Assembly (NCBI GenBank): GCA_032622095.1
Contig: CP136061.1
Location: 19,160,991-19,224,990, forward strand
DNA from: Siphonodentalium dalli
Lineage: Eukaryota > Mollusca > Scaphopoda > Gadilida > Siphonodentaliidae
DNA: 64,000 nt
Reading direction: 5' to 3'
Shown here: positions 19,708 through 55,900 of the stretch, one piece after another
Layout of the letters: every line of letters begins with the position of its first letter
Position numbering within the stretch: position 1 is the first letter of the stretch
Made by a program: the position numbers and the translations under genes
Notes under the pieces: generated by a model
Told to the model about the DNA's origin: nothing
The model's input: the letters and a program-made list of their open reading frames with translations, nothing else
The model's database searches: none

Positions 19708-22700
19708 TTAAAAGCACACTTAATTTTCGAGTCACCGGTTATTTTGTATGCGGTTTTAATAACAATCTATGGCATAAAATATGATTAAAATACTATAATT
19801 CATCACCACTTGAAACGTCTGTGTCTCAGAAGATGCCCATATATAGAAATAAAAAAGCTGAAATCATAGAAAGATTATGGCTTCCAGAATGCAACAGAAT
19901 TCTGACTAAAAATGTATGTTCAATGGAAGGGGAATAAGTCTATCTTTAAGATATAGAGTTATTACCCCGATTGAAAATAATACACTCTGCACTACAATTC
20001 AGATGCAACTTAAGCACAAAAAAACTCAACAAAAACAATCTGTTCACAGTTTATTACACCGGGTAACTTGATAATACAATGTTTTGGAGCTTCCTCTTTT
20101 AAATGGTATATAATATGTCATATATTTTATATAATGTGATCTGGGGGTTCATGGTATATAATATGTCATATATTTTATATAGGTGATCTGGGGGTTCATG
20201 GTATATAATATGGTATATATTTTATATATGTGATCTGGGGGTTCATGGTATATAATATGGTATATATTTTATATATGTGATCTGGGGGTTCATGGTATAT
20301 AATATGTCATATATTTTATATAATGTGATCTGGGGGTTCATGGTATATAATATGTCATATATTTTATATAATGTGATCAGGGGGTTCGATGGTATATAAT
20401 ATGGTATATATTTTATATAATGTGATCAGGGGGTTCGATGGTATATAATATGGTATATATTTTATATAATGTGATCAGGGGGTTCGATGGTATATAATAT
20501 GGTATATATTTTATATAATGTGATCAGGGGGTTCGTGGTATATAATATGTCATATATTTTATATATGTGATCTGGGGGTTCATGGTATATAATATGTCAT
20601 ATATTTTATATAATGTGATCTGGGGTTCATGGTATATAATATGTCATATATTTTATATAATGTGATCAGGGGGTTCGATGGTATATAATATGGTATATAT
20701 TTTATATAATGTGATCAGGGGGTTCGATGGTATATAATATGGTATATATTTTATATAATGTGATCAGGGGGTTCGATGGTATATAATATGGTATATATTT
20801 TATATAATGTGATCAGGGGGTTCGATGGTATATAATATGGTATATATTTTATATATGTAATCTGGGGGTTCATGGTATATAATGTGATCTGGGGGTTCAT
20901 GGTATATAATGTGATCTGGGGGTTCATGGTATATAATATGTCATATAGTTTATATAATGTGATCTGGGGGTTCATGGTATATAATGTGATCTGGGGGTTC
21001 ATGGTATATAATGTGATCTGGGGGTTCGATGGTATATAATATGGTGTATATTTTATATAATGTGATCAGGGGGTTCGATGGTATATAATATGGTATATAT
21101 TTTATATATGTGATCTGGGGGTTCATGGTATATAATATGGTATATATTTTATATATGTGATCAGGGGGTTCGATGGTATATAATATGGTATATATTTTAT
21201 ATATGTGATCTGGGGGTTCATGGTATATAATATGTCATATATTTTATATAATGTGATCTGGGGGTTCATGGTATATAATATGTCATATATTTTATATAAT
21301 GTGATCAGGGGGTTCGATGGTATATAATATGGTATATATTTTATATAATGTGATCATGGGGTTCGATGGTATATAATATGGTATATATTTTATATAATGT
21401 GATCAGGGGGTTCGATGGTATATAATATGGTATATATTTTATATAATGTGATCAGGGGGTTCGATGGTATATAATATGGTATATATTTTATATATGTAAT
21501 CTGGGGGTTCATGGTATATAATGTGATCTGGGGGTTCATGGTATATAATGTGATCTGGGGGTTCATGGTATATAATATGTCATATAGTTTATATAATGTG
21601 ATCTGGGGGTTCATGGTATATAATGTGATCTGGGGGTTCATGGTATATAATGTGATCTGGGGGTTCGATGGTATATAATATGGTGTATATTTTATATAAT
21701 GTGATCAGGGGGTTCGATGGTATATAATATGTCATATATTTTATATAATGTGATCTGGGGGTTCATGGTATATAATATGTCATATATTTTATATATGTGA
21801 TCTGGGGGTTCATGGCATATAATATGTCATATATTTTATATATGTGATCTGGGGGTTCGATGGTATATAATATGGTATATATTTTATATATGTGATCTGG
21901 GGGTTCATGGTATATAATATGTCATATATTTTTATATGTGATCTGTGGGTTCATGGCATATAATATGTCATATATTTTATATAGGTGATCTGGGGGTTCA
22001 TGGTATATAATATGTCATATATTTGATATATGTGATCTGGGGGTTCATGGTATATAATATGTCATATATTTTATATATGTGATCAGGGGGTTCGATGGTA
22101 TATAATATGGTATATATTTTATATAATGTGATCTGGGGGTTCATGGTATATAATATGTCATATATTTTATATAATGTGATCAGGGGGTTCGATGGTATAT
22201 AATATGGTATATATTTTATATATGTGATCTGGGGTTCATGGTATATAATATGTCATATATTTTATATAATGTGATCAGGGGGTTCGATGGTATATAATAT
22301 GGTATATATTTTATATATGTGATCTGGGTATATAATATGTCATATAGTTTATATAATGTGATCTGGGGTTTCATGGTATATAATATGTCATATATTTTAT
22401 ATAATGTGATCAGGGGGTTCATGGTATATAATGTGATCTGGGGGTTCATGGTATATAATGTGATCTGGGGGTTCATGGTATATAATGTGATCTGGGGTTT
22501 CATGGTATATAATATGTCATATATTTTATATAATGTGATCAGGGGGTTCATGGTATATAATGTGATCTGGGGGTTCATGGTATATAATGTGATCTGGGGG
22601 TTCATGGTATATAATGTGATCTGGGGGTTCATGGTATATAATGTGATCAGGGGGTTCATGGTATATAATGTGATCTGGGGGTTCATGGTATATAATGTGA

Positions 22701-23349
22701 TCTGGGGGTTCATGGTATATAATGTGATCTGGGGGTTCATGGTATATAATGTGATCTGGGGGTTCATGGTATATAATATGGTATATAATATGGTATATAT
22801 TTTATATATGTGATCTGGGGGTTCGATGGTATATAATATGGTATATAATATGGTATATATTTTATATAATGTGATCTGGGGGTTCATGGTATATAATGTG
22901 ATCTGGGGGTTCATGGTATATAATGTGATCTGGGGGTTCATGGTATATAATGTGATCTGGGGGTTCAATGGTATATAATATGGCATATATTTTATATATG
23001 TGATCTGGGGGTTCATGGTATATAATGTGATCTGGGGGTTCAATGGTATATAATATGGTATATATTTTATATATGTGATCTGGGGGTTCATGGTATATAA
23101 TGTGATCTGGGGGTTCAATGGTATATAATATGGTATATATTTTATATAGGTGATCTGGGGGTTCATGGTATATAATATGTCATATATTTTATATAGGTGA
23201 TCTGGGGGTTCATGGTATATAATATGTCATATAGTTTATATAATGTGATCAGGGGGTTCGATGGTATATAATATGGTATATAATATGGTATATAATATGG
23301 TATATAATATGGTATATTCAGGGGGTTCGAAAATTAAGTGGGCCTTTAA
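19708..23349. mobile_element. Putative TTAA element S containing a satellite
   Basis: TTAA (19708-19711) is followed by AAGCACACTTAATTTTCGAG. Near 23325 the complement, TCGAAAATTAAGTGGGCC, precedes TTTAA (TTAA at 23346-23349). A third copy of this end, with about 180 bp of adjoining sequence homologous to 19712-19830, lies at 36226-36410. The inverted ends bracket the 3.2-kb satellite, suggesting that the satellite expanded inside an element. Boundary assignment is an inference. Confidence 0.5.
20104..23322. repeat. AT-rich satellite array (27-bp and ~47-bp units)
   Basis: A core GTGATCTGGGGGTTCATGG is joined to TATATAATATGTCATATATT-type sequence. Long units (about 44-48 bp) dominate, while 22400-22960 is mostly the 27-bp short form (TATAATGTGATCTGGGGGTT plus CATGGTA). 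Variants carry ATCAGGGGGTTCGATGG. A block at 20751-21002 recurs identically 639 bp further on (21390-21641), showing segmental duplication inside the array. Both strands keep long repeat-encoded frames (22216-23166 minus; 22319-22813 plus), which are not genes. Confidence 0.95.
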
Positions 23350-24595: not shown

Positions 24596-24921
24596 ATCGG
24601 CGTGTGATGTCTAACCTGCTATAATTCAGTCTGGCAATTTATGGCAGGCGTGGTTATCGCCGCTGGGCAGTAGCGTGAATTGACAACGCAGTTGGACAAT
24701 TCAACATCACAGTTGCTGCCGACCAAGAAGACAACTGCGACATTCATGGGTACATGGAAGATATCGCACCCACCACCATCACGCCGCCACAACCAAGCAA
24801 TCGATGCCAACGAAAGCCGAGAATTATGTATACGCCAAACTGATATAAAACAATTCGTGTATTATTATTATTAGCCATGTATTATATATCACTATCGCAT
24901 TCATAATTATCATTAAATCTA
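24596..24921. other. Non-coding spacer before the Helitron array
   Basis: No gene seen. The stretch ends with ATCTA, supplying the A that precedes the 5'-TC of the first Helitron-like unit. Confidence 0.35.
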
Positions 24922-25531
24922 TCTATTATATATTTTGGAAGATCTGTGTGTGTGTCTGTGTGTCTGTGTGTTCGCGATGAACTCGAAAACGGTCGAGCCG
25001 ATTTCGATGAAACTTGGTATGTGGGGGTATTTTCGGCCGGCGGGTGGCATGGGCCTATTAATTTGTCCGTGCGACGTGACCTTGACCTTGAAATCGGGTC
25101 ATTTCAAGGTCAAACGCCCGAATATCACGGGATTTCGATGAAACTTGGTATGTGGGGGTACTTTCTTATGGCGAGTCTCATAAGCATATTCATTTGCCCG
25201 TGCGACGTGACCTTGACCTTGAAATCGGGTAACTTCAAGGTCAAATCGCCAATTTTGATGGGATTTCGACGAAATTTGATACGTGGGGTTAGTTTTGTCC
25301 ACCGATTGTTTTGGACGGGTCCAATCGTGACCCCGACCAGACCTTGACCTTCAAAATGATCAATTCAAGGTCAAATCGGGTAAAACCGGATGGATTTCGA
25401 CGGGCACGTTTGTCAGGTACGTTTGTCCGGGCAGTGTTTTTGGACTGGTCAAATCGTGACCCCACTTGACCTTGACCTTCAAAATGGACAATTCAAGGTC
25501 AAAGCCCGGACGAAGTCGGGTCACCTTCTAG
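24922..25531 (+). mobile_element. Helitron-like non-autonomous element H1
   Basis: It begins TCTATTATATATTTTGGAAG after an A (24921) and ends CTAG (25528-25531) followed by T. A hairpin, CCCGGACGAAGTCGGG, lies about 9 bases before the CTAG. These are the structural marks of Helitron ends inserted in an AT target. A GT-rich microsatellite follows the 5' end. The body is made of about 120-bp repeats with AAGGTCA and TGACCTTGACCTT motifs and the phrase TTTCGATGAAACTTGGTA. No Rep-helicase coding. A close relative is at 51384-52414. Confidence 0.75.
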
Positions 25532-26030
25532 TCTCATATATATTTTGAAGACCTCTGTCTGTTTGTCTGTCTGTTTGTCTGTTTGTCATTTATACAAATC
25601 TACGATTCTCGACCGATCGGGACGAAACTTGGTACGTGTGTGTAGTTTGACCAGGCGGTGGACGTTGTCGTATTGGCGAGCCCGTGCGGCGCCCGCTTCG
25701 CGCAGACGAGATATCGGAAACGGGTGGAGCTATCGACTTGAAATTTGCTATGTGAATGTATCTTGCCCCGGATACGAATTTTATCGGGTCGCCGAGCCCG
25801 TGCGACGCCAGCTTCGCGCATGCGCAGACCAGATCTCGGAAACGGGTGGAGCTGTCGACTTGAAATTTGGTTTTTGAATAGCCCGGACAACGTCGCCCGG
25901 ACAACGTCGGGCTCATCGGCTAGCCCGTGCGACGCCAGCTTCGCGCAGACCAGATCTCGGAAACGGGTGGAGCTATCGACTTGAAATTTGGTTTATGAAT
26001 AGCCCGGACAACGTCGGGCTCATCGGCTAG
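25532..26030 (+). mobile_element. Helitron-like element H2, abutting H1
   Basis: It starts TCTCATATATATTTTGAAGA immediately after the CTAG of H1 and ends CTAG at 26027-26030, preceded by the perfect hairpin AGCCCG-GACAACGT-CGGGCT. The body carries two to three roughly 120-bp repeats around CGGAAACGGGTGGAGCT. Confidence 0.75.
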
Positions 26031-26034
26031 TCTA

Positions 26035-29000
26035 TCTATACTATATATTTTGAGACTTCGTATATATGTGTGTGTGTGTGTACTTCATAGAATCCAAAAC
26101 GCGTGTACAGATTGAGATCAAATTTCGTATGTAAGTGTAAAATCCCACCGACACCGCCGTAATCGTGTTATCGAGAAGCTCTGAGCACCCTTTATCCACT
26201 CCCAGTCATCGAAATCAGCTCAAACGGCACGGCCGGGGTTAATAACGTCATTATATATATATATGAAGTCAGAGTCTCCAAAGTTATACCGGAACAAACA
26301 CGTGTTTACGTCGTCTTGGGGGTCCACGATGGGAGTCTGACTTCAATGCAATGTTATCGCTCGAAACACGTGTTTACTTCGTGTTGAGGTTCACGATGGG
26401 AGTCTGACAATTGTTATCGCTCGAAATAGTACATTAGGACGGGAACGGCTGGACAGATTGAGCTCAAACTTCCTATCTAAAGGTAAAATACCACGTACGA
26501 TGTCGTCCACGCGTTTTCCAGAAGCTCCGAGCACCCGTACTCCACTCCCAGTCATAAAAATCAGCTCAAACGGCACGGCCGGGGTTAATAACGTCATTAT
26601 ATATATATATACGAAGTCAACGTTATTAGCATCTGCATTGAGTGCATTTCCTAGAACGCAACACGTGTTTTACGTCGTCTTGAGGTTCACGATGGGAGTC
26701 ATTTCAATGCAATGTTATCGCTCGAAACACGTGTTTACTTCGTGTTGAGGTTCACGATGGGAGTCTGACATTTCAATGCAATGTTATCGCTCGAAATATT
26801 ATGCAGAAAGGCAGATCTCGGAAACGGGTGGAGCTATCGACCTGAAATTTGCTATGTGAATGTATCTTGCGCCGGGTACAAATTTTATTGGGTCGCCGAG
26901 CCCGTGCGACGCCCGTGCAGCGCATGCGCAGACGAGATCTAGGAAACGGGTGGAGCTATCGACTTGAAATTTGCTATGTGAATGTATCTTGCGCCGGGTA
27001 CAAATTTTATCGGGTCGCCGAGCCCGTGCGACGCCAGCTTCGCGCATGCGCAGACCATATCCCGGAAACGGGTGGAGCTACCGGGTACAAATTTTTCTTA
27101 TTGAAACGCGTGGAGCTAAAAATTAAAAAAAAATATATAAAAAAAATGTCATGTTTCGGACAAGCCGCCGGTGGCGGGCTAACCTGCTAGTCTATACTAT
27201 ATATTTTGAGACTTCGTATATATGTGTGTGTGTGTGTACTTCATAGAATCCAAAACGCGTGTACAGATTGAGATCAAATTTCGTATGTAAGTGTAAAATC
27301 CCACCGACACCGCCGTAATCGTGTTATCGAGAAGCTCTGAGCACCCTTTATCCACTCCCAGTCATCGAAATCAGCTCAAACGGCACGGCCGGGGTTAATA
27401 ACGTCATTATATATATATATGAAGTCAGAGTCTCCAAAGTTATACCGGAACAAACACGTGTTTACGTCGTCTTGGGGGTCCACGATGGGAGTCTGACTTC
27501 AATGCAATGTTATCGCTCGAAACACGTGTTTACTTCGTGTTGAGGTTCACGATGGGAGTCTGACAATTGTTATCGCTCGAAATAGTACATTAGGACGGGA
27601 ACGGCTGGACAGATTGAGCTCAAACTTCCTATCTAAAGGTAAAATACCACGTACGATGTCGTCCACGCGTTTTCCAGAAGCTCCGAGCACCCGTACTCCA
27701 CTCCCAGTCATAAAAATCAGCTCAAACGGCACGGCCGGGGTTAATAACGTCATTATATATATATATATACGAAGTCAACGTTATTAGCATCTGCATTGAG
27801 TGCATTTCCTAGAACGCAACACGTGTTTTACGTCGTCTTGAGGTTCACGATGGGAGTCATTTCAATGCAATGTTATCGCTCGAAACACGTGTTTACTTCG
27901 TGTTGAGGTTCACGATGGGAGTCTGACATTTCAATGCAATGTTATCGCTCGAAATATTATGCAGAAAGGCAGATCTCGGAAACGGGTGGAGCTATCGACC
28001 TGAAATTTGCTATGTGAATGTATCTTGCGCCGGGTACAAATTTTATTGGGTCGCCGAGCCCGTGCGACGCCCGTGCAGCGCATGCGCAGACGAGATCTAG
28101 GAAACGGGTGGAGCTATCGACTTGAAATTTGCTATGTGAATGTATCTTGCGCCGGGTACAAATTTTATCGGGTCGCCGAGCCCGTGCGACGCCAGCTTCG
28201 CGCATGCGCAGACCATATCCCGGAAACGGGTGGAGCTACCGGGTACAAATTTTTCTTATTGAAACGCGTGGAGCTAAAAATTAAAAAAAAATATATAAAA
28301 AAAATGTCATGTTTCGGACAAGCCGCCGGTGGCGGGCTAACCTGCTAGTACTATATATTTTGAGACTTCCGTATATGTGTATGTGTGTACTTCATAGAAT
28401 CCAAAACGCGTGTACAGATTGAGATCAAATTTCGTATGTAAGTGTAAAATCCCACCGACACCGCCGTAGATGTGTTTTCGAGAAGTTCTGAGCACCCTTT
28501 ATCCACTCCCAGTCATCGAAATCAGCTCAAACGGCACGGCCGGGGTTAATAACGTCATTATATATATATATGAAGTCAGAGTCTCCAAAGTTATACCGGA
28601 ACAAACACGTGTTTACGTCGTCTTGGGGGTCCACGATGGGAGTCTGACTTCAATGCAATGTTATCGCTCGAAACACGTGTTTACTTCGTGTTGAGGTTCA
28701 CGATGGGAGTCTGACAATTGTTATCGCTCGAAATAGTACATTAGGACGGGAACGGCTGGACAGATTGAGCTCAAACTTCCTATCTAAAGGTAAAATACCA
28801 CGTACGATGTCGTCCACGCGTTTTCCAGAAGCTCCGAGCACCCGTACTCCACTCCCAGTCATAAAAATCAGCTCAAACGGCACGGCCGGGGTTAATAACG
28901 TCATTATATATATATATATACGAAGTCAACGTTATTAGCATCTGCATTGAGTGCATTTCCTAGAACGCAACACGTGTTTTACGTCGTCTTGAGGTTCACG

Positions 29001-31802
29001 ATGGGAGTCATTTCAATGCAATGTTATCGCTCGAAACACGTGTTTACTTCGTGTTGAGGTTCACGATGGGAGTCTGACATTTCAATGCAATGTTATCGCT
29101 CGAAATATTATGCAGAAAGGCAGATCTCGGAAACGGGTGGAGCTATCGACCTGAAATTTGCTATGTGAATGTATCTTGCACCGGGTACAAATTTTATCGG
29201 GTCGCCGAGTCCATGCGACGCCCGTGCAGCGCATGCGCAGACGAGATCTCGGAAACGGGTGGAGCTATCGACTTGAAATTTGCTATGTGAATGTATCTTG
29301 CGCCGGGTACAAATTTTATCGGGTCGCCGAGTCCGTGCGACGCCAGCTTCGCGCATGCGCAGACCAGATCTCGGAAACGGGTGGAGCTACCGGGTACAAA
29401 TTTTTCTTATTGAAACGCGTGGGGCTAAAAATTAAAAACAAATATTAAAAAAATGTCATGTTTCGGACAAGCCGCCGGTGGCGGGCTAACCTGCTAGTCT
29501 ATACTATATATTTTGAGACTTCGTATATATGTGTGTGTGTGTGTACTTCATAGAATCCAAAACGCGTGTACAGATTGAGATCAAATTTCGTATGTAAGTG
29601 TAAAATCCCACCGACACCGCCGTAATCGTGTTATCGAGAAGCTCTGAGCACCCTTTATCCACTCCCAGTCATCGAAATCAGCTCAAACGGCACGGCCGGG
29701 GTTAATAACGTCATTATATATATATATGAAGTCAGAGTCTCCAAAGTTATACCGGAACAAACACGTGTTTACGTCGTCTTGGGGGTCCACGATGGGAGTC
29801 TGACTTCAATGCAATGTTATCGCTCGAAACACGTGTTTACTTCGTGTTGAGGTTCACGATGGGAGTCTGACAATTGTTATCGCTCGAAATAGTACATTAG
29901 GACGGGAACGGCTGGACAGATTGAGCTCAAACTTCCTATCTAAAGGTAAAATACCACGTACGATGTCGTCCACGCGTTTTCCAGAAGCTCCGAGCACCCG
30001 TACTCCACTCCCAGTCATAAAAATCAGCTCAAACGGCACGGCCGGGGTTAATAACGTCATTATATATATATATATACGAAGTCAACGTTATTAGCATCTG
30101 CATTGAGTGCATTTCCTAGAACGCAACACGTGTTTTACGTCGTCTTGAGGTTCACGATGGGAGTCATTTCAATGCAATGTTATCGCTCGAAACACGTGTT
30201 TACTTCGTGTTGAGGTTCACGATGGGAGTCTGACATTTCAATGCAATGTTATCGCTCGAAATATTATGCAGAAAGGCAGATCTCGGAAACGGGTGGAGCT
30301 ATCGACCTGAAATTTGCTATGTGAATGTATCTTGCGCCGGGTACAAATTTTATTGGGTCGCCGAGCCCGTGCGACGCCCGTGCAGCGCATGCGCAGACGA
30401 GATCTAGGAAACGGGTGGAGCTATCGACTTGAAATTTGCTATGTGAATGTATCTTGCGCCGGGTACAAATTTTATCGGGTCGCCGAGCCCGTGCGACGCC
30501 AGCTTCGCGCATGCGCAGACCATATCCCGGAAACGGGTGGAGCTACCGGGTACAAATTTTTCTTATTGAAACGCGTGGAGCTAAAAATTAAAAAAAAATA
30601 TATAAAAAAAATGTCATGTTTCGGACAAGCCGCCGGTGGCGGGCTAACCTGCTAGTACTATATATTTTGAGACTTCCGTATATGTGTATGTGTGTACTTC
30701 ATAGAATCCAAAACGCGTGTACAGATTGAGATCAAATTTCGTATGTAAGTGTAAAATCCCACCGACACCGCCGTAGATGTGTTTTCGAGAAGTTCTGAGC
30801 ACCCTTTATCCACTCCCAGTCATCGAAATCAGCTCAAACGGCACGGCCGGGGTTAATAACGTCATTATATATATATATGAAGTCAGAGTCTCCAAAGTTA
30901 TACCGGAACAAACACGTGTTTACGTCGTCTTGGGGGTCCACGATGGGAGTCTGACTTCAATGCAATGTTATCGCTCGAAACACGTGTTTACTTCGTGTTG
31001 AGGTTCACGATGGGAGTCTGACAATTGTTATCGCTCGAAATAGTACATTAGGACGGGAACGGCTGGACAGATTGAGCTCAAACTTCCTATCTAAAGGTAA
31101 AATACCACGTACGATGTCGTCCACGCGTTTTCCAGAAGCTCCGAGCACCCGTACTCCACTCCCAGTCATAAAAATCAGCTCAAACGGCACGGCCGGGGTT
31201 AATAACGTCATTATATATATATATACGAAGTCAACGTTATTAGCATCTGCATTGAGTGCATTTCCTAGAACGCAACACGTGTTTTACGTCGTCTTGAGGT
31301 TCACGATGGGAGTCATTTCAATGCAATGTTATCGCTCGAAACACGTGTTTACTTCGTGTTGAGGTTCACGATGGGAGTCTGACATTTCAATGCAATGTTA
31401 TCGCTCGAAATATTATGCAGAAAGGCAGATCTCGGAAACGGGTGGAGCTATCGACCTGAAATTTGCTATGTGAATGTATCTTGCACCGGGTACAAATTTT
31501 ATCGGGTCGCCGAGTCCATGCGACGCCCGTGCAGCGCATGCGCAGACGAGATCTCGGAAACGGGTGGAGCTATCGACTTGAAATTTGCTATGTGAATGTA
31601 TCTTGCGCCGGGTACAAATTTTATCGGGTCGCCGAGTCCGTGCGACGCCAGCTTCGCGCATGCGCAGACCAGATCTCGGAAACGGGTGGAGCTACCGGGT
31701 ACAAATTTTTCTTATTGAAACGCGTGGGGCTAAAAATTAAAAACAAATATTAAAAAAATGTCATGTTTCGGACAAGCCGCCGGTGGCGGGCTAACCTGCT
31801 AG
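26035..31802 (+). mobile_element. Tandem Helitron-like array, five ~1.15-kb units
   Basis: Head-to-tail units lie at 26035-27190, 27191-28348, 28349-29497, 29498-30655 and 30656-31802. Each begins (TCTA)TACTATATATTTTGAGAC with a TG microsatellite and ends with the hairpin CCGCCGGTGGCGG, about 10 bases before CTAG and a T. Units alternate in length and in variant: those starting at 28349 and 30656 share a 5' form (TAGTACTATATATTTTGAGA) and a shorter 3' part, while those at 26035, 27191 and 29498 share the other. Landmarks such as the frame at 27547 and 29854, or 28698 and 31005, are exactly 2307 bp apart, a dimeric higher-order period. Internal frames recur in every unit and are not genes. Confidence 0.85.
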
Positions 31803-32905
31803 TACTATATATTTTGAGACTTCCGTATATATATATATGTGTACTTCATAGAAGCCAAAACGGCTGGCTCGATTGAGTTCAAACTTCCCATCTAAATTTA
31901 AAAACCCACGGGAATCGTCGTCGCATCGTTTTGGTGAAGCTCGGAGCACCCGTTCTCCAATCTCAGTCACAAAAACGGCACTGCGGGGTTAATAGCGTTG
32001 ATAGTTAAAGAGCGTTCGTGTCCGCAGTGTGTTGATAAAGAGCGTATGTGTTTATTGTGACTCTTACGTCTGGGTCTCGGCATGAGCGTGTAAGACTGTA
32101 CCCAGACATGAGCGTGTTGTGTGACGACATTCCCAACACATAACAGGGACAAATATCTATTAGCCACCATCAAGGCGAGTAACGACATTCCCAACACCTA
32201 ACGGGGACAAATATCTATTAGCCACCATCAAGGCGAGTATTGCGACGTATTAATTCAAATGCTTTCGATCAAACAATATTCTCTATCGCACTCATATTTC
32301 GTCATCTCTACGAAAGCAGCACATGTCGCGTTGGTGATGGGGTGCGCGGCGGGATTAATTTAAATATGTCATGTTGGTACCAATATCTAGCCGAGAATTC
32401 CTCAGACCTACAGACGAATGCGACCAGCAAATTTCAAAATTGGTCACTCGACCTCCCTATGAATATCTTCTGGGAAATGCCAGGGAATGCGTGCCCATTA
32501 TCGGGCCATTGTGTGTGTCGCGGTCGCGCAATTTGAACACTTTCGAGGTAAATACACGTGGTTGTGAATTACGTCACGCCACGTGGATCCAGGCGGAAGT
32601 TAAACTGACCCTTCCAATGCCGCGTACGTTAGTGATGCCGGAGTTATAGCTGACCGCAATGCCTGATCCGCCGAATGTGAGCATGTTATCACCTGTTATG
32701 GCAGTCCGTGGTCCACGGCAGTCAGTTGCCGTGTCGAATATTGAAGCCTACTGATCAATTCAAGGTCAAATCGGGTAAAACTCGCTGTTTTCGACGAAAT
32801 TGTACACCTAGGTGCAGCATGTATACGTGTCTCGGAAGCTGTTGCAATTGCTTTTTCGAACAATGCCATGAGACGAACCACGCCAGTGGCGGGCTAACCT
32901 GCTAG
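31803..32905 (+). mobile_element. Divergent terminal Helitron-like unit
   Basis: It starts like the array units (TACTATATATTTTGAGACTT) and ends CGCCAGTGGCGGGCTAACCT and GCTAG|T at 32905, but most of the interior differs. It includes a 58-bp duplication (32123-32237) and a piece with AAGGTCAAATCGGGTAAAAC near 32762. A fragment near 32433 (AAATTGGTCACTCGACCTCC) resembles the right end of the GGAGGAGG MITE family. It closes the concatemer. Confidence 0.7.
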
Positions 32906-33643
32906 TAATGTATAAAGAAAGTGGTTCTTCCCAATCAACAACAGATTACCGACATGGGTCCCGGATTGTTTTATTTGTTTTATTATATTATTTTGAGAAA
33001 TAATTTGAAATAATATAATAAAATAACAAAATAATGATCCCGGACACCCTGATTTATTGGCCAAACCGCGGCGATCCCATTTGGGCGTAATATTAACTGG
33101 AGCGCTCGAATGGGTAACTGGATACTGTCCGCAGCTGAGTAAAGTACCACCGCCGGTATCAATCGGCAAACCTCGGTGATTTCCGTACGCAAATAATTAT
33201 TATTTTCCCAAGAACAATAATCCGAGAAGTTGCGATTGCGCCGGTATGAGTGATTCATTGTACACAAGGCGCGTAACGCTCGATTGGGCGCTTTTGGGAA
33301 ATGTACATACCTCCGTATGATCAATTCAAACATTGACGAATGGTGCATGAAGCGACATTGACCAATCCTATTATGATTTACGTCATGTACCACTATAGAG
33401 ACATGAAAGATAATATTTACTTCTCTCTGTGTGGAACTCAATGTGCGTATCGAAGCTCCAATATATCGGACGTCTCTGTTTTCTTTTGTTAATTCAGTGT
33501 TACAATTCATTTCAAGGATTTTCACTCTTGATCCTGGAATTGACTCGATCACTGAACGACTGAACTGGCTCTGTGGACACGAATTTCCGTCACGGTTGAA
33601 CACAATTCATCCTCTCGGCTCAAATCGATATCCATTACAGCAC
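32906..33643. other. Upstream region of the intronless Shisa-like gene
   Basis: A minus-strand frame of 206 codons (32983-33603) is open here but shows no recognisable domain and ends in the promoter of the plus-strand gene. It may be chance. An inverted TTATTATATTATTTTGAG-type hairpin lies at about 32978-33030. Confidence 0.35.
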
Positions 33644-33650: not shown

Positions 33651-33720
33651 GGGGGCGTTCGATCCCACCCCTGGATTAGCAACTGTGTGCAATTGACAAC
33701 GATTTCAAATAGTTGGCAAT

Positions 33721-34200
33721 ATGATGTTCTCTTTTGTGGAGTTGTCTTTCTTGCTGGCTATATCGTTCGCCTCGTTGGATATTTGTTCATCGGAATGGAG
33801 ATCTGGATCAAGTTCATTCTCTCGTTCGCCTTCGTCGTCGGGATGGCGGTTCACAACCAGGAGTTCCTTGACGTCATCCACCCGCACGATGCTTTTGGTT
33901 GGAACCCTGTATGGATCTCGATATTACATGAGGCGACGTCGTTATTCGTCCAATCGTGAACCACAGATATGCACGAATTATAGTTATAATGCAACCAACG
34001 CCACCACTGACGACGCGGGAAAATTTATTTGTCCAATGGATGGCCAAGGAGAGGATATGGAGTACTGTTGCGGAGATTCTGGATCTAATTATTGCTGTAC
34101 ATTCTGGGACACACCTATCCATGTGGTGGTTATTTGTATCGCCATCATTATTTTCGTCCTGATATTGGCTGTGGCAATATATATATGCTTTATTCTCTGA
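33721..34200 (+). CDS. Intronless Shisa/CYYR-like single-pass membrane protein
   Basis: A 159-residue frame starts at the first ATG after the TATA box. Residues 1-20 form a hydrophobic signal peptide. A Ser/Arg-rich stretch follows (24-80). A cysteine-rich ectodomain has C84, C104, C116-C117 and C125-C126, ending in CC-x7-CC (CCGDSGSNYCC), the pattern of the Shisa N-terminal domain. Sequons at N86, N90 and N93 suggest glycosylation. Residues 133-158 are one membrane segment, and the chain stops right after it, so there is almost no cytoplasmic tail; Shisa proteins usually have a proline-rich tail with PPxY-type motifs. Vertebrate Shisa proteins act in the ER and membrane on Wnt/FGF receptors or AMPA receptors; no specific partner can be inferred here. 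A His-rich frame just downstream (about 34259-34450) could be a tail exon, but the junction is weak. It could also be a retrocopy. Confidence 0.65.
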   Translation: MMFSFVELSFLLAISFASLDICSSEWRSGSSSFSRSPSSSGWRFTTRSSLTSSTRTMLLVGTLYGSRYYMRRRRYSSNREPQICTNYSYNATNATTDDAGKFICPMDGQGEDMEYCCGDSGSNYCCTFWDTPIHVVVICIAIIIFVLILAVAIYICFIL

Positions 34201-35515: not shown

Positions 35516-35639
35516 TTCTATAAACTAGCTTTCAAATTTTATGCGGGAAATTTGCGTACTTCCATATTTCAAGTTTTCCCGTTTCTCGTGGCATACATTA
35601 CTTTCATCAAACTGTCTTCTTTATTACACAAGCTGATAG

Positions 35640-36215
35640 GCCCGACTTCACCCGGGCTGTTTCACATCTGCTTTCCGGTGAAAGGTGCGATTTGACCTTC
35701 AATTGACTATTTCGAAAGTCAAGGTCAGGTCAGGGTCATGATTTGTCCAGTCCAAAACACCCCCACCCGTAGAAAACTACCCATAGGTATCAAATTTCGT
35801 CGAAATCCGTCCGTTTTACCCAACTTGACCTTTAATTAACAATTTTGAAGGTCAAGGTAAGGTCAGAGTCATGATTTGACCCGTCCAAAACACCCCCCCC
35901 CCCCGACAAAAGTACCCATAGGTATCAAATTTCGTCGAAATCTATCCGTTTTATCCGAGTTGACCTTTGATTGGCCATATTGAAGGTCAAGGTCAGGCCG
36001 AGGTCACGATTTGACCCGTTCAAAACTCTCCTCAGACCAAAGTATCCCTAGTATCAAATTTCGCCGAAATTTGTCCGTTTTACCCAAATTGACCTTGCAT
36101 TGACAGTTTTAAAGGTCAAGGTCAGGTCGGGGTCACGATTTGACCCGTTCAAAACACTTCCCGGACACAAATACCCATAGGTATCAAATTACGTTGAAAT
36201 CTATGGAAAGCCGAG
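35640..36215 (-). repeat. ~133-bp tandem repeats of Helitron-body type
   Basis: Four units of TTGACCTT...AAGGTCAAGGTCAGGTC, GATTTGACCCGTCCAAAACA and GTATCAAATTTCGTCGAAAT. The same phrases occur in the opposite orientation in the bodies of H1 and the 51384-52414 element. CCCGACTTCACCCGGG at about 35642 resembles the inverted 3' hairpin. It is probably a degraded minus-strand Helitron-like copy without intact ends. Confidence 0.6.
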
Positions 36216-37872: not shown

Positions 37873-40800
37873 CATACTGGGGGACATGACAATCTGCGGG
37901 ATGGGATGGGATATGGGACAAAACGACAATCTGCGGGACAGAATTTCAAATTGCGTGGGACGGCCGATATATCGAGGAATACAGGGCGTAGGGAGCTCAT
38001 TTTGGTGTCTAACGAAAGGCCCACATTCGCCCTATCCACACATATTAACCCCACCACTGACAGGACATAAGAAGTTGCATTATTTGATCGACAACTGACC
38101 TAACATGGGGTGGAATTTGGGATAGAATGACAATCTGCGGGACAGGATTTTCAAATTGCGTGGGGCGGCCGATATCTCGAGGAATACAGCGCGTAGAGGG
38201 CTACGTTTGGTGTCTAACGAAAGATCCACATTCGCCCTATCCACACATATTAACCCTGCCACTGACCGGACACCGGAAGTTACATTATTCGGTCGACAAC
38301 TGACCTAACATAAAATTCCACAAACACGAAAAACTGCGTTCGACATTAATGTTTAGAATTTAGATTTCTCGTTGAATACACTATCAAACAACTAGTTTTA
38401 GGTATCAAATAACGCAGTGGAATACTGTGCATTCGTCTTTAGCTACAATATGGCTGTTTTAGTGCGAATATTGTAATGGCGAACACGCAAACACGCTCCG
38501 ATAAAACAGCTAAAAATAGACTCGATGTTTACAATTACAGGATCGATTTCAGCCGGTATATTCAATATAATGGGGCGTATAGTATATCAAAATGTAGAAT
38601 TAGACACAGGGAATGTATTTTTTCCCAAATGGGTCCACCAGGCGGTGAAATTGTTGCAGAAATTCGCTCCAAGATATTCGCACTTATTTTTATTTCAGTT
38701 GTGACTAAAAGCCCAGATGCCGGAGCCCAGCGACTAAAAGCCAAGTTACAAAATAGATCAACTGGTTTGAACGAATGAATATGTCAATGGTAAGACTATT
38801 CAAAAGAATATTCAAATCAAATAGTGTTTATAGACTTAAAAACTTATGTGTCCGCCATTCATATATGCGGTGGAAGTTCTCATATTATCTGCCAGTCATA
38901 CGCGGGGGAGGTTCTCATATGAACATATTATCTGCCGGTCATACGCGGTGGAGGTTCATATTATCCACCGGTCATACGCGAGGGAAGTTTTCATATTATC
39001 CTCCAGTCATACGCGGGGGGGGGGGGGGTCTGATATGAACATATTATCCACCGGTCATACGCGAGGGAGGTTCTCATATTATTCTCCGGTCATATGATGG
39101 GGAGGTTCTCATATGAACATATTATCCGCCGGTCATACACGAGGGAGGTTCTCATATTATCCACCGTTTATACGCGAAGGAGGTTCTCATATTATCCTCC
39201 GGTCATACATAGGGGAGGTTCTCATATGAACATATTATCTGCCGGTCATACGTGGTGGAGGTTCATATTATCCGCCAGTCATACACGAGGGAGGTTCTCA
39301 TATTATCCTCCGGTCATATATGTGGGGGAGGTTCTGATATGAACATATTATTCGCCGGTCATACGCGGTGGAGGTTCATATTATCCACCGGTCATACGCG
39401 GTGGAGGTTCTCATATGAACATATTAGCCGCCGGTCATACGCGGTGGAGGTTCATATTATCCGCCGGTCATACGCGAGGGAAGTTCTCATATTATCCTTC
39501 GGTCATAGGTGGGGGAGGTTCTGATATGAACATATTATCTGCCTGTCATACGCGGTGGAGGTTCATATTATCCGCCGGTCATACGCGGTGGAGATTCTCA
39601 TATTAACATATTATCTGCTGGTCATATGCGAGGGAGGTTCTCATATTATCCACCGGTCACACGCGAGGGAGGATTGACCGGCGGATAATATGTTCATATG
39701 AGAACCTCCCCAACGTATGACCAGAGGATAAAATTAGAACCTCCCTCGCGTATGACCGGTGGATAATATGAACCTCCACCGCGTATGACCGGCAGATAAT
39801 ATTTTCATATCAGTACCTCCCCCGCGTATGACCGGAGGATAATATGAGAACTTCCCTCGTGTATGACCGGCGGATAATATGAACCTCCACCGCGTATGAC
39901 TGGCAGATAATATGTTCATATGAGAACCTCCACCGCATATGAATGGCGGACACATAAGGTTTTAAGTCTATAAACACTATTTGATTTGAATATTCTTTTG
40001 AATAGTCTTACCATTGACATATTCATTCGTTCAAACCAGTTGAAAATATGAAAACTTCCCTCGCGTATGACCGGTGGATAATATGAACCTCCACCGCGTA
40101 TGACCGGCAGATAATATGTTCATATGAGAACCTCCCCCGCGTATGACTGGCAGATAATATGAGAACTTCCACCGCATATATGAATGGCGGACACATAAGT
40201 TTTTAAGTCTATAAACACTATTTGATTTGAATATTCTTTTGAATAGTCTTACCATTGACATATTCATTCGTTCAAACCAGTTGATCTATTTTGTAACTTG
40301 GCTTTTAGTCGCTGGGCTCCGGCATCTGGGCTTTTAGTCACAACTGAAATAAAAATAAGTGAGAATATCTTGGAGCGAATTTCTGCAACATTTTCACCGC
40401 CTGGTGGACCCATTTGGAAACAAATACATTCCCTGTGTCTAATTCTACATTTTGATATACTATACGCCCCATTATATTGAATATACCGGCTGAAATCGAG
40501 CCTGTAATTGTAAACATCGAGTCTATTTTTAGCTGTTTTATCGGAGCGTGTTTGCGTGTTCGCCATTACAATATTCGCACTAAAACAGCCATATTGTAGC
40601 TAAAGACGAATGCACAGTATTCCACTGCGTTATTTGATACCTAAAACTTGTTGTTTGATAGTGTATTCAACGAGAAATCTAAATTCTAAACATTAATGTC
40701 GAACGCAGTTTTTCGTGTTTGTGGAATTTTATGTTAGGTCAGTTGTCGACCGAATAATGTAACTTCCGGTGTCCGGTCAGTGACGGGGTTAATATGTGTG

Positions 40801-41165
40801 GATAGGGCGAATGTGGACCTTTCGTTAGACACCAAAAGTAGCCCTCTACGCGCTGTATTCCTCGAGATATCGGCCGTCCCACGCAATTTGAAAATCCTGT
40901 CCCGCAGATTGTCATTCTATCCCAAATTCCACCCCATGTTAGGTCAGTTGTCGATCAAATAATGCAACTTCTTATGTCCGGTCAGTGGTGGGGTTAATAT
41001 GTGTGGATAGGGCGAATGTGGGCCTTTCGTTAGACACCAACATGAGCCCCCTACGCCCTGTATTCCTCGAGATATCGGCCGTCCCACGCAATTTGAAATT
41101 CTGTCCCGCAGATTGTCGTTTTGTCCCATATCCCATCCCATCCCGCAGATTGTCCCCATACTGGG
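37873..41165. mobile_element. Foldback/Mutator-like element with 9-bp target duplication
   Basis: CATACTGGG occurs at 37873-37881 and again at 41157-41165, directly outside a 3275-bp palindrome (37882-41156). Termini read GGACATGACAATCTGCGGG on the left and, complemented, GGGACAATCTGCGGGATGGG on the right. Arms of about 1.5-1.8 kb contain, from outside in, a roughly 207-bp duplicated block (GACAATCTGCGGGACAG...), a conserved middle segment, and tandem units of GGTCATACGCGGTGGAGGTT with CATATTATCCGCC, meeting at about 39670. The right arm has an extra partial copy of the middle segment (39950-40030). Long TIRs built of tandem repeats with 9-bp duplications are typical of Foldback and Mutator-like elements. 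No transposase is present. A 100-codon frame is mirrored in both arms (38476-38778 plus; 40264-40566 minus) and has no recognised domain. Confidence 0.8.
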
Positions 41166-48660: not shown

Positions 48661-48900
48661 ATTTTATCTCTTGTAACTTTTGCTTCAATGCGTCGAGTTC
48701 CGCTGCAGAGAATACAAAACTGACAACATTTTGAAATGTTAGCAGGCTTCAAACTCATCTTATCCAAGAAAAACTCTGGTTACATAAGAAATTTGTGTAT
48801 ATGGTGTACGCGCATTTGTTGAGATAAAAACCAAAGGTCCCAAGTCAAGGTCCAAATCCCCAACACACTGTAGTGAGGTTTAACTCCATCTACATACAGT

Positions 48901-49371
48901 AATGTCCAAAGTAATTGATCACTTAACCACAGCAAAATTATGGGTATTTTTTCATGATTTTAAATCCTGAAAAATTACCCATAATTATGCTGTGGTTAAG
49001 TGGTCAATTACTTTGGGCATTTTGTAACCAATATAAGGATTTGAGGTTTAATGATAACTCAATCCTCATACAGTAATGTTCAAAGTAATTGACAACTTAA
49101 GCACAGCAGAATAATGGGTAATTTATCAGGATTTTAAATGCTGAAAAAATACCCATAATTCTGCTGTGGTTAAGTGGTCAATTACTTTGGGCATTACTGG
49201 AACCAATATAAGGATTTGAGGTTTAATGATAACTCAATCCTCATACAGTAATGTTCAAAGTAATTGACCACTTAACCAGAGCAGAATTATTTGTAATTTT
49301 TCAGGATTTTAAATCCTGAAAAATTACCAATAAGTCTGATATGGTTAAGTGGTCAATTACTTTGGGCATTG
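48901..49371. repeat. Three tandem copies of a ~120-bp hairpin
   Basis: Hairpins at 48901-49020, 49075-49195 and 49250-49371 each pair AATGTCCAAAGTAATTGACC, ACTTAACCACAGCAGAATTA and TGGGTAATTTTTCAGGATT with their complements. They are separated by a conserved ATATAAGGATTTGAGGTTTA spacer (period about 175 bp). The paired arms are about 55 bp with few mismatches. This may be a palindromic MITE amplified in tandem; no target duplication was identified. Confidence 0.85.
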
Positions 49372-49439
49372 CTGTAACCAATATAAGGATGTGAGGTTTA
49401 ATGAGAACTCCATACACATAACAATTAAATATGTGTGAA

Positions 49440-51383: not shown

Positions 51384-52414
51384 TCTATTATATATTTTGA
51401 AAGATCTGTGTGTGTGTGTGTGTGTATCTGTCTGTGAGTGTGTGTGTAATCGACCGACCCGATTTCGATGAAACTTGGTACGTGGGGGTATTTTCGGCCG
51501 GGGGTTAACATAGGCCTATTGATTTGCCCGTGCGACGTGACCTTGACCTTCAAAACTCATATCTCGGGATCCGCAGTGCTATCACGCCGGATTTAGCACT
51601 GCGATGCAGGGAGGATAACTCTATATTCATACGTCGACGAACGTTAGCAATTTGCAGGCATGCAATTACGCATCGTGCATTTTTCCCAAAATTATAACAT
51701 TTACAATATATATTGTCAATTTGCAGGCTATTAAAAATCGTGCATCTATCCCAAAATATATCATTTATTACAATTTCTGATATATAAATTTTGTTACAGC
51801 TAATATTCTTAGGTCTATTGTCGATAAGATTTATTTTTTGTATATTCACACCACGCATAGGCTCAAGCTGTTTACATTTACCCCGCGGGTCTGGAATCTC
51901 ATCCAAGAATCCATTTAGCTGAAATGATACTTCGTTGTTGCGAAATGGAATCTACCGGTGGCCCCAAGCCGTCAATGTCAACAACATCGAAATTGTTCAA
52001 CTTTGACTGCGAGAAAATAATTAGTTAAAATTTACCACACAATGCTAATTTATCTTTACGTTGAAGCTTGATAATTAATGAGCGTGTGTATATGAGGCGC
52101 GTTTACATACTTTAGTGGAAATCAAATCGGTTAAAACTGGCGGATTTTTACGGACGAACTTTGATACATAGGGTATCTCGGTATCCGCTGGGCCGATTTC
52201 CCGGTATCCGCTTGCCCAATTTCCACCATTTTTGGGGTGTTGGTGTTGGAAAATTGCCAGACGGATTTTGACAAAATTTGATACTTAGTGGACCATAGTG
52301 GTAATTGTTTCCAGGGAGTGTTTTGGACGGGTCAAATCGTGACCCCACCTGACCTTGACCTTCAAAATGGTCAATTCAATGTCAAAGCCCGGACGAAGTC
52401 GGGTCACCTTCTAG
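51384..52414 (+). mobile_element. Solo Helitron-like non-autonomous element
   Basis: It begins TCTATTATATATTTTGAAAG after A51383 and ends CTAG (52411-52414) before T52415, with CCCGGACGAAGTCGGG about 9 bases before the end: the same two ends as H1, in an AT target. A TG microsatellite follows the 5' end. Between about 51555 and 52090 the interior is unlike H1. The 3' part has GACCTTGACCTTCAAAATGG and TTTGACAAAATTTGATACTT. No coding. Confidence 0.75.
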
Positions 52415-52926: not shown

Positions 52927-55900
52927 ATGGACTGTTTAATACAGGTTGTGGTTATATTTGGAATAGTCATTCTTTCAGGTTATCAAGGTGAGTTTTTTGC
53001 GCAACTTATTTCACTGCATGTGAGATCAGACCTCAATAACAAATTTAACAATATTCCATGTTTAACTGCAATAATTGTTGTGCTGTCGTATGATGAAGTT
53101 GTAGAAACAAGTTTCAGATATACAGGCGATTGTCTGTTGCTGTTGTTTTTTGTTTTTGTTTTGCATCCAGACACCTCTCGGCAATAAACAACTCCCTATA
53201 TATAGCTTTTCCATATTTAGAAAGTTCTACTCTGCAGTATCAGACAACCATGCAACGCGTTTTTTGTTTGTTTAAATTTTACGATATATTTTCAAACACC
53301 CGGGACACAATCGATATATAAAAAAGTCAAGTGTTTGTCTGTCTGTCTGTGTGTGTTTGTTTGTTTGTGTTTATCTGTCACGATTTTGGCGCGTTTAAAA
53401 ATATATCATCCCATATCGGATTGCGCCCAAATTTTGACCATGTCCTGAGGCACATCTTAGAATTAGCGGTGCAGCGATGACGATATTTCCGGCATGTCAT
53501 GTTCAAAGTCATTCATCATTTTTGACCTCAGACGACTTAAATGGGCACATAGCGGCCTAGGATAACTTAAAGGGGGGCTGATGAATTGCATGATTAATAA
53601 ATAGCATTTATTGTCAGCTCAGAAAATAGGTGGGAAAATTTGTGACCACAGGTAACACCTCACGGGGAATGTCACGACATAGCTGACGTGGTAAAAAAAG
53701 GCACTCGTAATCAGCAATCAAGAGCGTTTATTATCAGCTTAAATAATTATTCACACGTTATTCCTGCATGCATGTCATGTTTGTCACCCATAATTTTTAC
53801 GGTAAATCCCCTTGTTAAAATATAAATCGTGGAAATTTTGTCCAAACCTCAAACTGTCGAAGGGTTCTTCCGAACTTCTTGTGCAATGCGTTGGAAATAT
53901 TAGATATCGTCCGCATAGAATAGACATTATGACAATAAATATTCGCTGTTTTACCAGGGATATTTTTATTTTTCAGTTGATGCAAAATGGTGTTCAGCTT
54001 ACCCAAGTTCAAAGTATTGCGCTTCGCTTTGCTGCGGATCATACTACGGCAGATACTGCTGTGGTGATGAAACGTGGAGGTAAGTCACCCGCCCTTGTGT
54101 TGACGACAATGTACGTATATATACCCAGCCTGGGTCACTGTTAAAGATGCATAATCCGAATTAACGCTCCCAAATTACTATTTCTTTGGCGGCCTGGCAA
54201 ATATTCGACAAGACGATAGGATAGGATATTATATTTTATTTCAATATACACATATTAACCCTTTACCCAACAAACCGGCCAAAACCGGCCAAATAAAGCT
54301 TCAACAGCCTAAAATATCTTCGGTCTGTCTCAATAAAACCATACAAATATGGATATCATTGGAACCGGCTCCTTGACCACATTGTGATAGTTACAGTTAT
54401 GCCCTGTGCCAATGCATTCTCTTATATATGCGAGTCGACCATAGGTCGCCTCGCATATATAAGAGAATGCATTGGCCTAAAAAAAATCTTTTTTTAACAC
54501 TTTTTACCATTTTTTCTTACATTCTTTAACAATTTTATAATTTGTAATGTGTTAAGCCAATGCATTCTCTTATATATGCGAGGCGACCTATGGTCGACTC
54601 GCATATATAAGAGAATGCATTGGCACAGGGCCCTTCTGTTGGGTAAAGGGTTAATACATAGTACATTTGACAAATATTGTATTGTATTTCGAGGTGTGGC
54701 ACAGTCAGGTTAGATTGTTTTCTTGCTACCCCAAGTCGGACCATATTGTGCATGACGATGAATATCTCTAAAATCAAGTGGCCTTGACTGTTAGCGATAT
54801 GTGACCATCCGCCCAGATTTAGTTGAACAAAATGTTGATAAATAACACGTTTTGTGCAATTTTATACCATATAGTTGACTATGGTTAGCATTTTTGTGGG
54901 CAATTACTCGATTCTGATATATATATAACTGAACAGGTATTTAAAAATAATATTGCTGTTGAAATTGTTGTTGGAATCTGATGATATTGGGACCATCGAA
55001 TATGATTGAGTATCATTAAAGGCACGTGAGGCCTTAGTTGCCGAAAATATTCATATTTGTTCCAATCACCGTAAACAGAAAAACATTAAAACGCATACAG
55101 TTTCGTTCATATATACCATGACCATCGCGTAAACAGCATGTTATCATAAATATTTACTATATTTTACCTAAGCAAGAGCCTGATTGTGTTACAGAAGACA
55201 GCACAATGCTGCTGGCTAATCACACACAAATGGCATAAACGCTCTTTATTCGTTCCATATCAGGAATTCACCAACAAAGAACGCTCTTTATGTTTACCAT
55301 CATAATATAAACAAACACCAGAAAAGTTACTTTTTATGCATTTGTTTACATAACAATGGTCAGATATATGACAATAACATACTGTTTATGCGATATTTCT
55401 TATTTGTATACGGACAAAGTCTGTCTACATTTTGTTGTTCTTTCTGTTTGTGGCGGTTTTTGACGGGTGGAAATATTTTCACAGGATACCCACCGCCAAG
55501 GCCAACCGTACCTTTAAATGGTAATTGTTTGGGAAAGGTGTCTATCTTTGAAATGCCAGCTGCACTCACAGGAAGACCACAGAGACACGGCTAAAATGTA
55601 GTTACCGAGTAAGGCTGTCCAACTTTGGACTGTACCCCTCCCCCATTGAAGAACAAAATTCTCAACTCTCTGGGAAAACTGTTTGGCCCACCCTTGACTT
55701 GGTAATTCCAACTGACACCTCGAACTTTTAAACTGTCGGAAAGGAAAATTTCAATCTAACTCCCCGAACCATTGGACAATTTAAAACTGATGGTTGTGTG
55801 TAAGTCTAAACGTGGGACTTTATGATAGTCCTGTATACTAAATGGAACGGTGTCTTTTCCAGAAAAAAATATGCTATTGCTTGCACTAACATTAGCTTTT

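Follow-up and report, generated by a model that had tools for sequence, protein, structure and literature searches.

Tandem Helitrons are a kind of structure that is already known, and the array described here, on the forward strand at positions 24922-32905 of a 64,000-nucleotide stretch of the scaphopod Siphonodentalium dalli (contig CP136061.1, positions 19,160,991 to 19,224,990; hereafter the window), can be set beside several of them. Background on Helitron ends and insertion sites is given in PMC6544945 and PMC4067079. The present array resembles the Helraiser/Helibat elements of bats, which are described as having TC...CTAG ends, CTAG-TC head-to-tail joints, a palindrome near the 3' terminus, A and T on either side of the insertion, and bypass of the 3' terminus (PMC4778049). 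However, the units here are non-coding, three of the eight do not start with TC, their hairpins are weak, and no Rep/helicase (RepHel) domain was found in the 20 open reading frames (ORFs) scanned. Tandem or nested Helitrons of bats, Drosophila, rice, maize and fungi also include tandem copies and compound elements with several termini (PMC5148889, PMC3288121, PMC5876387). Unlike those, the present locus brings together different kinds of unit, eight in total and each ending in CTAG, and contains four-nucleotide TCTA tags that possibly record the order of insertion.

Head-to-tail copies also make up the plant centromeric rolling-circle Helitron arrays, for which Xiong et al. 2016 is said to be the underlying study. 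As described in PMC12628747, many of these arrays combine several 5' ends with one 3' end, whereas here the 3' end is kept by all eight units; an assignment to the plant type of array, made of 3'-truncated Helitrons, was rejected because every terminator is present. The tandem-repeat Helitrons and HINEs of Crassostrea gigas are described as having a similar general plan, in which end boxes are combined with a microsatellite and an array of short tandem repeats (PMC8268682, PMC7492417). The HINEs of this species prefer T-rich or TT sites (same sources), whereas the sites are A^T at the array and at a solo copy elsewhere in the window, and membership in the Helentron/HINE group was rejected on this ground. 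In the passages covered of a grasshopper paper (PMC7754599), there is nothing on tandem Helitrons.

Eight units and their ends

The array consists of eight Helitron-type units (U1 to U8) placed end to end, each closing with CTAG before a T. These CTAG|T ends were located at 25528, 26027, 27187, 28345, 29494, 30652, 31799 and 32902, as expected from the eight units claimed in the first-pass annotation, and they are the complete set of CTAGT within 24801-33000. CTAGT by itself is not above chance, since it occurs 37 times in the window, eight of them in the array; the case for the array therefore rests on the context of this motif, namely longer terminal sequences and kilobase-long repeats. For the long units, the terminal 19 nt at the 3' side were found six times in the window (U3-U8) against 0.00 expected from shuffles, and the 20 nt at the 5' side six times against 0.02 expected, with up to three mismatches allowed in each case. 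Both patterns were derived from the array itself. Searched for as exact matches in viral contigs, the two terminal 19-nt patterns of the array gave 0 and 0 matches.

The termini support the view that the units are Helitron-like. CTAG, which agrees with the CTRR end of Helitrons, closes all eight units and the solo copy. The 5' TC start is present in U1, U2, U3, U4, U6 and the solo copy, while U5, U7 and U8 begin with TACTATAT instead. An A precedes the 5' TC and a T follows the last CTAG, both for the array taken as a whole and for the solo copy, as expected for insertion between A and T. The 3' hairpins have bulged stems that end 6-7 nt before CTAG. When the window was searched for stems without gaps, one of the eight unit ends was detected and the solo copy was missed. 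Thus, of the TC and hairpin-CTAG ends first proposed for all units, CTAG stands throughout, TC does not, and the hairpins are bulged and weak.

The first two units are short, non-autonomous Helitron-like elements with TC...CTAG ends, joined seamlessly. U1 (24922-25531, +; 610 bp) carries a GT/GTCT-rich stretch followed by tandem repeats of about 131 bp, and U2 (25532-26030, +; 499 bp) contains tandem repeats of about 121 bp. The limits of U1 are taken from its solo relative at 51384-52414 (+), which has the form A|TC...CTAG|T and whose junctions read GAAGTA|TCTATTATAT...CACCTTCTAG|TAGTATAT; U1 is 84% identical to it over the first 172 nt and 93% over the last 106 nt. The first-pass annotation would have been contradicted by solo copies with other limits than TC...CTAG, and this solo copy, which has both ends and speaks for the U1 family only, has exactly these limits. 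Another relative, at 35629-36201 (-), is a remnant that contains repeats of the U1 type. Its 3' end resembles a hairpin and was read by eye as CTTG|T, not CTRR, and its 5' end was not found. BLAST of the array against the rest of the window returned only U1-type matches and two short U8 matches, with no solo A, B (the two variants of the long units), U2 or U8. The ends of these latter elements are thus drawn from the array itself, those of U2 being placed by the CTAG|TC joints, the 5' box and the hairpin only.

The five following units, of about 1.15 kb, fall into two variants by sequence identity. Variant A comprises U3 (26035-27190, +; 1156 bp), U4 (27191-28348, +; 1158 bp) and U6 (29498-30655, +; 1158 bp), and variant B comprises U5 (28349-29497, +; 1149 bp) and U7 (30656-31802, +; 1147 bp), both with a 5' end devoid of TCTA. 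There are no substitutions within A or within B, only one TA step in the microsatellite: U4 and U6 are identical, and the second TA tract has 14 bases in U3 and U7 and 16 in U4, U5 and U6. A and B differ by 20 substitutions and a few indels. The order of the units is A-A-B-A-B, that is, two dimers and one extra A. The two variants and the start-to-start offsets (1156, 1151, 1156 and 1151) correspond to what had been noted at first, but the clean alternation and the A-B-A-B pairing are broken by the extra A. The proposed 2307-bp dimer does exist, twice: U4-U5 measures 2307 bp and U6-U7 2305 bp, and they are identical at 2305 of 2307 positions, with two gap columns and no substitution. The two dimers and one monomer of this window fall short of a satellite with higher-order repeats, in which a multi-monomer unit is present in many copies; the initial description of a satellite with higher-order structure was overstated for a dimer present in two copies in the window.

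When U4 and U5 are compared, all 20 substitutions lie outside an identical core of 693 bp. A run of this length was reached in 0 of 200,000 random placements of 20 substitutions over the 1149 aligned positions. The core was thus probably exchanged or converted between A and B, provided that mutation is even along the unit. A and B themselves look composite, because their 5' module is present twice, 346 bp apart, and because their tandem repeats, of about 122 bp, resemble those of U2. The second copy of the 5' module is nearer to the module of U8 than the first (79% vs 73%).

The last unit, U8 (31803-32905, +; 1103 bp), is a related but different element, also with a 5' end devoid of TCTA. Its divergence, already reported in the first-pass annotation, amounts to 48-49% identity with A and B in a forced full-length alignment. 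By region, identity reaches 74-75% in a 5' part of about 210 nt, the first 28 nt of which are as in B, and 24 of 25 positions at the 3' end. U8 is presumed to be the oldest unit of the array.

Joints, tags and growth of the array

The units were first described as following each other without spacer, and this is the case for most joints, but a 4-bp TCTA (26031-26034, +) lies between U2 and U3. Seamless CTAG|TC joints connect U1 to U2, U3 to U4 and U5 to U6, while CTAG|TACT joints lead into the units devoid of TCTA, from U4 to U5, U6 to U7 and U7 to U8. TCTA is also found directly before U1 (24918-24921, +). The tag between U2 and U3 may be the 5' end of a B unit that was pushed aside. The one at the left of the array may likewise be the first 4 nt of an older element, U8 according to the model proposed below, but it could also be an extra TCTA of U1 or host sequence. 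Prefixing TCTA to U5, U7 or U8 restores the first 25 nt of the 5' end of A exactly; over 30 positions there are five mismatches, which start at the next A/B difference. Once the duplication of the dimer is discounted, two TACT joints are left (A to B and B to U8), and these pair in nested order with the two TCTA tags upstream. Since TCTA represents 198 of the 63,997 tetramers of the window, it is unlikely that two tags occupy the fitting places by chance.

The position of possible targets gives a direction to the growth of the array. The first-pass annotation placed an AT target at the CTAG|T junction, but this junction reads G^T. A^T targets are present at the 5' border (A|TC) and at positions 4, 9, 11 and 13 of the 5' end, whose sequence TCTATACT holds the first of them four bases in (TCTA^TACT). 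Growth would therefore be on the 5' side. The end bypass and repeated insertion that were also proposed at first fared better, serial insertion with terminator bypass being the best supported mechanism that we found.

We propose that non-autonomous Helitrons were stacked here one upon another, each new one arriving on the 5' side, and that a compound A+B element was later re-inserted, a history to which we give slightly better than an even chance. As a Helitron starts with T after an A, the 5' border of every insertion would again offer an A^T target, and CTAG|TC joints such as U1-U2, U3-U4 and U5-U6 are expected from insertion at A|TC. Insertion at TCTA^TACT would place the newcomer between a TCTA to its left and a TACT to its right, which would account for the short starts of B and U8, and hence for the units without TC, as well as for the extra TCTA before U1 and U3. 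In this scenario, U8 would have entered the host site AAA^TAAT, then B would have inserted into U8 at TCTA^TACT, producing the tag now ahead of U1, and A into B in the same way, producing the tag now ahead of U3. U2 would have followed, at the point where these tags met (TCTA^TCTA), and after it U1, which would have joined the 5' border of U2. A compound A+B, starting at the TC of A, bypassing the terminator of A and stopping at the CTAG of B, would have re-inserted at the 5' border of A to give the two 2.3-kb dimers, and one further A would have been added. The central part of both variants may have been evened out by gene conversion or exchange. On record for Helraiser are junctions of the A|TC and CTAG|T type, a preference for AT, 3'-end bypass and head-to-tail circles (PMC4778049), and compound elements arising from nested Helitrons have been proposed in maize and Fusarium (PMC3288121, PMC5148889). 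If the tags have this origin, the 5' ends of solo A, B or U8 copies should neither run TCTATCTATACT nor natively start with TACTATAT after a host A.

Several observations weigh against this history. The hairpin folding z-scores range from -0.22 to -1.88 and are not significant (six ends folded, three of them of the same sequence), and no empty insertion site was found within the window. The tags could possibly reflect nothing more than variation in a (TCTA)n run, or the first of them could belong to the host, and the number of TCTA at the 5' end of the family is known from few copies, the sole solo copy belonging to the U1 family. The model also requires insertion, compound re-insertion and conversion together, including a presumed bypass of the intact CTAG of A. 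Moreover, it is unlikely rather than impossible that elements inserted directly into CTAG|T, at G^T, as targeting of AT by Helraiser is not strict, 46 of its 1,751 insertions being at other dinucleotides (PMC4778049).

The main rival is unequal exchange, according to which Helitron insertion brought in the original A, B and U8, whereas unequal crossing-over or replication slippage produced the additional A and the second A+B. Identical tandem repeats are prone to such events, and the 693-bp core free of substitutions suggests that exchange or conversion probably did occur at this locus. However, crossovers in the core would yield A/B hybrids, and none of the five long units is a hybrid. In order to leave none, the exchange must fall in the 51-bp identical 3' tail. 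This tail represents 4.5% of the positions identical between U4 and U5, a share that drops to 3.1% when the exchange needs 25 bp of identity and to 0.3% when it needs 50 bp. Unequal exchange also presupposes an existing A-A junction. Conversion following the duplication could nevertheless have masked part of the evidence from hybrids and junctions, and we consider this route possible but rather unlikely.

We regard as improbable that the array is a rolling-circle concatemer, in which a circular intermediate was copied repeatedly and the multimer inserted in a single event. Helraiser circles join CTAG to TC (PMC4778049, PMC5876387), similarly to the CTAG|TC joints of the array, and a concatemer could still explain the doubling of A+B alone. 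It leaves unexplained the mixed content of U1, U2, A, B and U8, the TCTA tags and the TACT joints, and the several 5' ends and single 3' end of many plant arrays (PMC12628747) contrast with the CTAG found in eight of eight units. Another explanation could be that the number or order of the A and B units is an assembly artefact, for example two haplotypes joined together. The identity of copies of the same variant, but for one TA step, is indeed what duplicated assembly sequence would look like. Yet the 5' joints differ between A and B, the second TA tract has 14 or 16 bases depending on the unit in a pattern that crosses the variants (U3 and U7 against U4, U5 and U6), and U1, U2 and U8 are independent of the copy number of A and B; such an error seems to us hardly probable.

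Coding content and other features of the window

No RepHel or other Helitron domain was detected with Pfam in the 20 window ORFs scanned. The window contains 21 ORFs of at least 120 amino acids, 16 of which were scanned, the others being at 22216-23226, 22298-22813, 25600-25992, 30955-31362 and 55220-55594; 51 ORFs of at least 60 amino acids overlap 24900-32920, and seven of these were scanned. Just downstream of the array, an open frame at 33697-34200 (+) gave a match to Shisa_N below the cut-off (E value 0.0024). Other matches below the cut-off, to GLOD4_N, Herp-Cyclin, PAE and DUF6084 (E values 0.02 to 0.098), were taken as chance. ARAGORN found no tRNA in the window, and no Rfam family matched at the Rfam thresholds. 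About 60 bp past the 3' end of the array, at 32965-33035, lies a short and imperfect palindrome, with 78% agreement over 74 columns.

Several other repeats are present in the window. Upstream of the array, a minisatellite of about 3 kb (20103-23282), with a period of about 49 and related values, itself forms an open frame of 336 amino acids, and its GC skew is strong (0.585 at 20001-22000). An inverted repeat of 1113 bp (37888-39000 and 40042-41154), whose arms are 98.6% identical, flanks a minisatellite array of the ATACGCGG type and resembles a large foldback element. Three tandem units of 175 bp, each largely palindromic, are found at 48881-49410. A 400-bp repeat with internal inverted repeats occurs at 236-635 and 54255-54654, in two copies that are 98.75% identical, and is perhaps a miniature inverted-repeat transposable element. 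Finally, a reverse transcriptase frame at 62193-63443 (RVT_1, E value 1e-32), followed by a frame of 191 amino acids, belongs to what looks like a non-long-terminal-repeat element (61617-63443, -).

A landing site that may renew itself

To what is already known of tandem Helitrons, the present locus adds a compound unit that has been doubled, a mixed stack of eight units in which every terminator is kept, and tags from which the order of insertion may possibly be read. We tentatively suggest, as an idea somewhat less likely to be right than wrong, that Helitrons can act as a self-renewing landing site, with A^T rebuilt at the 5' edge by each insertion. Stacks would then grow in one direction, TCTA tags would record nesting and compound dimers would transpose as a unit. 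If true, single transposons could in this way give rise to a higher-order repeat.

The locus may thus be a readable case of Helitron pile-up, in which an order of insertion can be proposed from tags of four nucleotides. Wherever a genome contains tandem Helitrons, a script would suffice to test the rule for the tags. Reviews list 5'-edge insertion, terminator bypass and unequal exchange together as origins of satellites (PMC12628747), and the present case would help to separate these three routes to tandem transposon arrays.

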